NCBI GenBank assembly: GCA_945868215.1
Contig: CAMBLN010000004.1
Coordinates: 1 to 45,458 of the forward strand
From: Opitutus sp. GAS368
Lineage (GTDB): Bacteria; Verrucomicrobiota; Verrucomicrobiia; Opitutales; Opitutaceae
DNA: 45,458 nucleotides
Direction of reading: 5' to 3'
Numbering within the stretch: the first letter of the stretch is position 1; every line of letters begins with the position of its first letter. A program made the translations under genes and the position numbers. The notes under the pieces are model-generated. The model worked only from the letters and a program-made list of their open reading frames with translations. It was not told the origin of the DNA and searched no databases. Of the stretch, positions 30,544-33,500 are shown in pieces.

Positions 30544-33500
30544 ATGCTCAAATCCGGCCTCGTCAACGCTTGGGAAACCCCCGAGCTCACTTCTCTCAAC
30601 AAGCTCCCGCCCCGCGCGACGTTCACCCACTTCGCCACCGCGAAGCAGGCACTCTCCCGCGATCCCGACAACTCGCCGTGGGTCCTCCCGCTCAACGGCA
30701 CCTGGCAGTTCCGCTGCGAGCCGTCCCCCGAGGACGCCCTCCGCTTCACCGAGGGCTCCGCCTTCACCTCCTCCGCCGAATGGGGCGCCATCACCGTCCC
30801 CGGCAACCTCCAGACCCAGGGCCACGGGAAACCCCACTACACCAATATCGCCATGCCTTTCCGGCACCTGCCCCCGCTCGTGCCGTCCGAAAATCCCACC
30901 GGCGTTTACCGTCGCACGTTCTCCGTCCCCGCCGCCTGGTCCGGCCAACGCATCGCCATCCACTTCGGCGGCGCCACCAGCGTCCTCGCCGTTTACCTCA
31001 ACGGCATCGCCGTCGGCCTCTCCAAGGACTCCTGCCTCCCCGCCGAATTCGATCTCACCGACGCCGTCCGCCACGGACAGGAAAACGAACTCGTCGCCCT
31101 CGTCATCAAGTGGTCCGATGCCTCCTTCATCGAGGACCAGGACCAATGGTGGCTCTCCGGCCTCCATCGCGAGGTCTTCCTCTACGCCACGCCGAAAACC
31201 TTCCTCCGCGACGTCCACGCGCGCCCCGTCGTCGCCGCCGATCTGTCCTCCGCCTCGCTCGCCGTCTCCGTGCATATCGGCATCACCGGTCCCGGCCCGA
31301 TTCCCGCCGGCATTTCCGCCGAGGTCCAGCTGCGCGATCCCAAGGGCCGCCCTGTATTCAAAAAATCACTCTCCGCCGCCCTCAACGTCCCCGCTAAACG
31401 CAACTGCAACCAGCACGACCACCTGCGCATCGACCTCTCCGCCGCCGTCCCGCGCCCGCAGCTCTGGTCCCACGAAACCCCCGCGCTCTACACGCTCGTC
31501 GTCACGCTGAAAACTCCCGACGGCACCAGCCACACCGCCACGCGTCTCGGTTTCCGCCGCGTCGAAATCCGCGACCGCGCCCTCCTCATCAACGGCAAAC
31601 GCGTCCTCATCAAGGGCGTCAACCGCCACGACCACCATCCCGACTTCGGCAAGGCCGTCCCCTACGAAACGATGGTCAAGGACGTCACGCTGATGAAGCA
31701 GTTCAACTTCAACGCCGTCCGCACGTCCCACTATCCCAACGACCCGCGCTGGCTCGATCTCTGCGACGAACACGGTCTCTACGTCATCGACGAGGCCAAC
31801 GTCGAATCCCACGACTTCCACAACTCCCTCTGCCACGACCCGCGCTACGCCACCCCTTGGCTCGACCGCGCCATGCGCATGGTCGTCCGCGACAAAAACC
31901 ACCCCGCCATCGTCTTCTGGTCCCTCGGCAACGAGGCCGGCTACGGACCCAACCAGGCCGCCGCCGCCGGCTGGATCCGCGAATACGATCCGTCCCGTCC
32001 GCTCCACTACGAGGGCGCCATCTCCCCGTGGCAGGGCTCCGCCACCTTCGTCCACGGCTCGGCCGCCAGCGACGTGATCTGCCCGATGTATACGAGCCTC
32101 AAAGATCTCAATGACTTGCTCGACTTCGCCGACGCCCACGCCCCCGCCTCCACCGCGCCCTACGCGGATTTGCTGCCTTTGCTCGACAAGGCCCGCATCG
32201 ACTTCCCCCGCGACGGCCGCCCCCGTCCTTCGCTCCCCACTCCGCTCCATCCGCTCAACCGCCCCGTCATCCTCTGCGAATACTCGCACGCGATGGGCAA
32301 CTCCAACGGCTCCCTCTCCGACTACTTCCAGCTCTTCAAGACCCGCGCCGGCATCCAGGGCGGCTTCATCTGGGAATGGCTCGACCACGGTCTCCGCGTG
32401 AAAACCCCCGACGGACGCGAACACTTCGCCTACGGCGGCGACTTCGGCGACACCCCCAACGACGCCAACTTCGTCTGCGACGGCCTCGTATCCGCCGACC
32501 GGATACCCCACCCCGCGATGTGGGAATTCAAACACCTCGCCCAGCCCGTCTCCGTCGGACTCGTCAAAAACAAACCCGGCCGCATCCGCGTCACCAACGA
32601 CCACGACTTCGTCTCCCTCGCCCGCCTCCAGGGCCGCTGGGAACTCCTCCTCGACGGCGTCTCCGCCAAAACCGGCAAACTCCCGCGCCTCGACCTCGCC
32701 CCCGGCGCGTCGAAAGACCTCGTCGTCCCCTTCGGCAAACTCCCCGCCGGCAAGGAAGCCCACCTCAACATCACCTGGACCACCGTCGCCGACACAACCT
32801 TCGCCAAGGCCGGCCACGAAACCGCCTGGACCCAGCTCGCATTGAAGGTGGAGCGCGTTGTCCCCAACGCGCTTTCCGTGCGTAAGTCGGCCGCCCCCGT
32901 CCTCCTCGAGAAAACCGTCGGCGGCCTCCTCCTCCTCGCCGGCGACACCGCCGCGACCTTCGACCGCGCCACGTCCACCTTGTCCTCCCTCCGCGTCCGC
33001 GGCGTCGAACTCCTCGCCCGCGCTCCGCTCGTCGAGCTCAACCGCGCCGCCACCGACAACGACGGCCTGAAACTCTGGACCGGACAGGATTACAAACCCC
33101 TCGGACGCTGGCAGAATCTCGGCCTCATCACCAAGCCCCTCCAGCACCAACCCAAAACCTTCTCCCACAAAGCCAACAAAGACGGCTCCGTCACCGTCAC
33201 GCTCGCCCACGCCGCCTCCGGCCGCGAAAACTGGAAAGACTGCACGCACACCCACCGCTACACGTTGCACGCCGACGGACGCCTCGAGGTCTCCAACGAC
33301 ATCGTCTTCGGTTCCGCCGACCTCACCGATCTCCCCCGCGCCGGTGTCCGCCTCGACCTCGTCGCCGGCTACGAAAACCTCGCCTACTTCGGACGCGGCC
33401 CCGTCGAAAACTACGCCGACCGCAAAACCGGCAGTCTCGTCGCCCGCTACGAAACCACCGTCACCGGTGAATACGTGGACTACGTCATGCCCCAGGAACA

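Follow-up and report, generated by a model that had tools for sequence, protein, structure and literature searches.

The window analysed here is a stretch of 45,458 nucleotides from Opitutus sp. GAS368, corresponding to contig C4 of the source genome (3.07 Mb, 220 contigs). It harbors a gene for a LacZ-type β-galactosidase of glycoside hydrolase family GH2 with a short palindromic element in its coding sequence (Table 1). The open reading frame shows no frame break across this element (GGTGGAGCGCGTTGTCCCCAACGCGCTT), which contributes ten residues (V769-S778); the last of their codons is completed by bases just 3' of the element. According to the Pfam matches these residues fall between the LacZ_4 and Bgal_small_N domains. 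In the predicted structure of the enzyme (32 sequences; mean pLDDT 87.0, pTM 0.90) strands are formed by residues 759-767 and 787-790, and the pLDDT drops below 50 at residues 775-781, adjoining those encoded by the element. Because of the Pfam boundaries and this low-confidence stretch between two strands, the element is predicted to occupy a flexible joint between two enzyme domains. The preliminary description of this DNA, made from the sequence alone, had placed an in-frame palindrome between two domains of a β-galactosidase, and the open reading frame and Pfam matches bear this out.

Folding of positions 32845-32878 as single-stranded DNA gave a stem of 9 bp with a 4-nt loop at -11.8 kcal/mol (z -4.3), and none of 200 shuffled sequences folded as well. 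REP elements of the GT[AG]G type were recognised by a GTAG or GTGG tag at 0-2 nt from a stem of at least 7 bp with a loop of 2-5 nt, following the tag and stem criteria in PMC6006769, from which the term guide tetranucleotide is also taken. In the β-galactosidase gene a GTGG tag is located directly 5' of the 9-bp stem with its 4-nt loop. A second copy (GGTGGAGCGTGTTGTCCCCAACACGCTT) is found elsewhere in the window. In a window search both copies showed zero mismatches to the element pattern, and 100 shuffles of the window contained no match with up to three mismatches. The two copies differ at two bases which are partners in one stem pair; on this point sequence and fold agree with the preliminary description. 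The copy at 17589 is itself flanked by two inverted stretches of the CACCACAAAGAC/GTGGTGAAAA type (17510-17545 and 17645-17675). Other repeats in the window include two 27-nt arms at 43223-43305 (AAAGTGTCACCTATTAGGTGACACCTT and AAAGTGTCACCTAATAGGTGACACTTT), each nearly self-palindromic and 29 nt apart, and a dispersed repeat, TTTCGTGTGTTTCGTGG, with direct and inverted copies at 17731-17758, 21353-21380, 21432-21458, 25302-25355 and 26517-26570.

Table 1. Features of the β-galactosidase gene and the two element copies, with positions in the window
Feature	Position	Strand	Basis
GH2 LacZ-type β-galactosidase, 1083 aa, host gene	30544..33795	+	ORF; GH2 LacZ-type domain matches
LacZ_4 match codons, residues 681-768	32584..32847	+	Pfam; ends where element codons start
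Bgal_small_N match codons, residues 801-1080	32944..33783	+	Pfam
REP element, single arm, within β-galactosidase gene	32847..32874	+	Pattern match; R1 hit 32845-32878, 56.8 bits
GTGG tag at foot of hairpin (guide tetranucleotide of REP elements)	32848..32851	+	Sequence
Hairpin: 5' arm 32852-32860, loop 32861-32864, 3' arm 32865-32873	32852..32873	+	Covariation and folding
Ten element codons, enzyme residues 769-778	32848..32877	+	ORF translation
Second element copy	17589..17616	+	Pattern and R1; both flanks non-coding by codon model

The preliminary description had proposed a genome-wide search for the element. With a plain pattern and up to three mismatches this search yielded 45 matches in the source genome against 0 in the reversed control. 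An accidental palindrome made up of codons might be tolerated in an open frame and a variable linker, but such a chance origin is already refuted by this copy number, and the window shuffles and the folding z-score likewise speak against it; we consider it extremely improbable. A covariance model (R1) was built from 44 of 47 source-genome copies (alignment A1, from which L064, L071 and L072 were left out; one further copy at a contig edge, L075, was not usable). R1 gave at least 54 hits in the source genome, the last two of them weak, and hits in 13 of the 37 genomes searched, the source included. Relatives contained at least 65 (G015), 29 (G005), 21 (G004), 17 (G007) and 7 (G009) hits; these numbers are lower bounds since 150 candidates were scored per genome. 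For the relatives 100 of 102 loci (L209-L310, without L305 and L310) were used, and dropping six partial, gapped or weak rows reduced their 146 hits to 140. The arm is 28-34 nt long as judged from pattern and R1 extents. The GTGG tag is present in 42 of the 44 aligned source-genome copies, and among 189 copies from the source and its relatives 158 carry GTGG and 18 GTAG. Dispersed copies are mainly extragenic: the codon model puts coding sequence on both flanks for 8 of 55 source copies, one of these being a chance match, with genic status judged by this model and Pfam matches rather than by annotation.

The stem covaries within the family. Among the 44 copies (41 distinct), standard pairs occupy 97.8% of 369 stem cells (91.5% in shuffles), changes on both sides of a pair occur in 19 cells (3.3 in shuffles, none of 500 as high) and touch four of the nine stem pairs (2.0 in shuffles, 21 of 500 as high), and the covariation score is 0.220 (0.107 in shuffles, none of 500 as high), all counts being inflated by kinship among the copies. 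Every covariation measure drops when the partner column is slid by one to three positions. The two paired differences between the window copies (T-A and C-G) had been described as a compensatory change. The covariation of the 44 copies upholds this for the family as a whole, but not as an event at the LacZ site; a compensatory mutation there is rejected, as the T-A and C-G versions each occur in multiple copies in the source genome. The two copies compared are separate members of a dispersed family. Their difference shows either constraint on the hairpin within the mobile family or copying along with it, and is uninformative about what the hairpin might do in the β-galactosidase gene. The covariation points to a mobile family in which a hairpin is preserved rather than to a function in lacZ.

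Contig C10 of the source genome encodes a RAYT-like protein of 158 amino acids with a Y1_Tnp match above cut-off, an MPDHVH motif and a conserved tyrosine. The best NCBIfam model is REP_Tyr_transpos (E 2.5e-20), with a score of 72.8 bits that lies below the curated cut-off of 80. R1 hits are located on both sides of this gene. The same arrangement is found in five of the best ten RAYT matches (source, G004, G011, G015 and G022); the other five (G001, G013, G014, G016 and G021) have no flanking R1 hits. G013 and G016 possess both R1 hits and a RAYT-like gene, non-adjacent to each other, and no RAYT match at E 1e-8 was obtained in G005 (at least 29 hits; genome 88% complete) or G009 (at least seven hits). 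Genomes G005, G009, G013 and G016 are thus counter-examples to a simple one-to-one link between REP copies and RAYT genes. Among the 140 hits in relatives there are 40 adjacent pairs (within 100 nt), of which 35 are inverted with the tags outward. The source genome has three such inverted doublets among its at least 54 R1 hits, the rest being mostly single. From these sequence features the family looks like a REPIN/RAYT system.

REPINs and their association with RAYT genes were defined in PMC3116915. The family described here resembles these systems (PMC3116915, PMC6006769) in its inverted doublets, common in relatives, the tag at the foot of the hairpin and a RAYT-like transposase gene with flanking copies, and differs from them in that the copies of the source genome are mostly single. 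In the REPIN/RAYT system of P. fluorescens SBW25, only 14 of the 1,067 16-mers of highest abundance overlap genes, whereas here 9 of at least 54 hits are genic. The closest description is that of GTAG repeats in Verrucomicrobia (PMC3733652), which reports intragenic REPs, those of the GTAG kind being most numerous in Opitutus terrae and including one in uvrA. The GTAG-20 repeats of O. terrae share with the present family a short stem, a GTRG tag (mostly GTGG there), dimers, RAYT neighbours and copies within genes, a likeness judged from the published description of these repeats. The same source mentions REPs at about the same site of recB in two Xanthomonas species. Palindromic repeats that are read in frame within genes for functional proteins are also known from Rickettsia (reviewed in PMC10969869; see also PMC3733652). 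These elements are described as about 150 bp long, whereas here the arm is about 30 nt and the doublet about 75 nt, which is too short for that class. Moreover, RPE-4 and RPE-6 are counted among the CGTC repeats, a class said to have no association with transposase genes, unlike the GTGG-tagged family with RAYT neighbours found here. The in-frame REP is ordinary in kind, the phenomenon being already published for this bacterial family.

It had been proposed that the palindrome adds about ten residues to the β-galactosidase. The length of the linker was measured from a conserved AW to DND in 66 of 89 loci (the remaining 23 gave no parse), several of the longest parsed segments being parsing artefacts. 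The segment comprises 80 residues in the window enzyme, and 79 (L038, L039, L053), 82 (L036), 85 (L054) and 86 (L040) residues in six close homologues without the element; a net insertion of ten residues is accordingly rejected. A more distant homologue (L122) has a segment of 107 residues. Two relatives carry a REP doublet with a span of about 80 nt at the same LacZ site, and their segments comprise 99 (L037, G009) and 101 residues (L035, G004). No REP is present at the LacZ site of G003, G007 and G010. The alignment of GH2 homologues that had been suggested as a check revealed the VERV.PNALS residues only in homologues carrying REP DNA (66 of 89 loci parsed), and no homologue among those parsed was seen to encode these residues by unrelated DNA, which the preliminary description had named as evidence against an inserted element.

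Nine of the at least 54 R1 hits in the source genome are located in Pfam-supported genes. The sites are in LacZ, a U32 peptidase, a lipoate-ligase-like protein, UvrA, a WD40 protein, PurL (twice), MutL and a lipoyl/KAS-III protein. Relatives contribute sites in a NIR_SIR protein, HsdM, an OGG_N protein, a SufD-like protein and GH115, as well as a second lipoate-ligase site and sites in a chromate transporter, an O-antigen ligase and a DUF6298 protein. A strict rule that copies are confined to linkers was rejected, as those in the lipoate-ligase-like, UvrA, WD40 and NIR_SIR proteins are inside a Pfam domain match; these presumably sit in loops. The mutL copy (L072, G000:C31) is degenerate and antisense, and is positioned between the DNA_mis_repair and MutL_C matches. 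One PurL gene of the source (L207, L208, L331) contains two REPs of the GTAGGGCGCGTTATCCC sub-family which are absent from the 96% identical G010. At these two sites the source is longer than G010 by 36 and 21 bases, in contrast to the situation in LacZ.

Of 16 in-gene sites with a sense arm, counted by hand, 14 read this arm as V[EG]RV. This frame is stop-free in all 189 copies, and the remaining two sense frames lack stops in 151 and 105; weighted by stop-free frames, the 14 of 16 sites correspond to P 2.7e-4. A strict V[EG]RV rule does not hold, since checks of weaker candidates by Pfam showed the sense arm to be read in frames other than this one in the chromate transporter (G005) and the O-antigen ligase (G007), and an antisense arm only is present in MutL (source), the DUF6298 protein (G015) and the lipoyl linker of the source. 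The frame bias mostly reflects where stop codons permit reading; the peptide itself may be preferred, but weakly. The predominance of one frame would also be expected if selection maintained the hairpin or the peptide for a role in the enzyme or its mRNA, and sites common to several species, such as the U32 peptidase of the source, G004 and G007, could be read in the same way. However, close homologues lack the element or have another sequence at its position, the modelled segment is of low confidence, the main sub-family alone gives 8 of 10 sites (P 0.019), and four genes (chromate transporter, O-antigen ligase, MutL and DUF6298) depart from the sense V[EG]RV pattern. We regard a selected function as improbable.

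The linkers that carry the REP in the source contain different repeats in other species. The U32 peptidase has a match in 22 of the 37 genomes, and of 20 loci analysed 16 gave a parsed linker. After a PKRW motif (L311-L329) this linker holds inverted GTRG-tagged repeats that differ by species, the family of the window being present in the source, G004 and G007. The U32 linkers of G001 and G009 have arms of the GTGGGAGCGAGCTTGCTCGC type as an inverted pair; with up to two mismatches this repeat has 14 matches in G001 (reversed control 0), 69 in G009 (reversed control 1) and 33 in the source. The U32 linker of G005 contains a GTAG-tagged pair of which the arm recurs elsewhere in that genome. By eye, the U32 linker of G014 shows an inverted pair with GTGG tags, and that of G003 a degenerate version of the G005-type pair. 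In the LacZ linker, arrays of AAATCNN-kind heptamers occur in L038, L113, L117 and L120, and the homologue from Geminisphaera colitermitum (L128) has a hairpin that shares 19 bases with another copy located just 3' of the gene. No recognised repeat was found in the remaining parsed LacZ and U32 linkers. Tandem heptamer-like arrays of the TTGGTCA kind are also present in the window (44704-44761 and 25466-25495), similar in style to those in the LacZ linkers of relatives. For PurL, where visual inspection was the sole basis for recognising repeat-like peptides in other species, the second linker of G009 (L334) has a GTAGGCCGCGAGCTTGCGCGC-like stretch where the source has a REP, which may be another tagged repeat. 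Among 74 orthologues in three gene sets, 10 have a tagged hairpin in the chosen linker compared to 11 hairpins elsewhere, a count biased by the choice of linkers for holding a REP, by the non-independence of orthologues and by a detector that misses the T2 stem. A general enrichment of tagged hairpins in linkers is for these reasons not relied on.

The history of the LacZ site can be read in two ways. In source, G004 and G009 the REP starts at a common codon boundary, is read in the same frame and is followed by S.RK after the REP peptide, features that favour descent of the three sequences from one doublet at this site. Such descent is not demonstrated, because a protein tree of 12 hand-picked rows, made with the linker removed, places the source enzyme beside the element-free G010 and unites G004 and G009 elsewhere with a REP-free paralogue, so that three changes of the REP label are needed; none of 200 bootstrap trees unites the three carriers. 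The tree would agree with separate acquisitions by the source and by G004/G009, with the LacZ linker as a recurrent landing site, and so would the other repeats in five LacZ linkers and the several unrelated families in the U32 linker. The identical boundary, frame and S.RK argue against separate events. So does the lipoyl linker of the KAS-III-like protein, where G005 and G007 have a doublet and the source has the right arm only with a similar spacer, which looks like a clearer case of doublet decay than LacZ as judged from these sequences. We consider separate acquisitions a real possibility, though somewhat less likely than not.

On a broader scale, the linkers of LacZ, the U32 peptidase and probably PurL in Opitutaceae could be recurrent landing sites for whatever dispersed repeat a genome carries, be it one of several GTRG-tagged REP families or a heptamer array, with repeats entering in frame as doublets and decaying to single arms, a proposal to which we give serious but still tentative credence. 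The occurrence of unrelated repeats in the same linkers (LacZ and U32 peptidase) of different species is the less described part of these observations. A survey of titles and the first lines of abstracts in the open-access literature found no report of one linker holding different repeat families, which is weak evidence of absence.

Taking these data together, the element in the β-galactosidase gene is very probably a GTGG-tagged copy from a REPIN family that is likely moved by a RAYT, captured in the LacZ linker and neutral for the enzyme. The mobile unit would most likely be the inverted REP doublet, which a cognate RAYT transposase may move as single-stranded hairpin DNA. A copy would have entered the DNA for the flexible linker between enzyme domains 4 and 5, and its ten codons appear to replace linker sequence rather than to extend it. 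The gene could have stayed open because the V[EG]RV frame is stop-free and the linker tolerates change. The single arm in the window is probably the remnant of a doublet like those in G004 and G009. The element can be explained without any function in the enzyme, and we infer it to be neutral.

These results connect an unusual palindrome with a defined mobile system in bacteria other than the gammaproteobacteria that commonly serve as models. The same-site series in orthologous enzymes, with a doublet, a single arm, another repeat or none, provides material for estimating capture rates and linker turnover, and the same-site pattern across enzymes merits a systematic count. If the landing-site pattern is true, mobile repeats would steadily supply new linker sequence, and variable linkers in these bacteria would in part be recycled mobile DNA, which calls for caution against reading linkers as adaptation.
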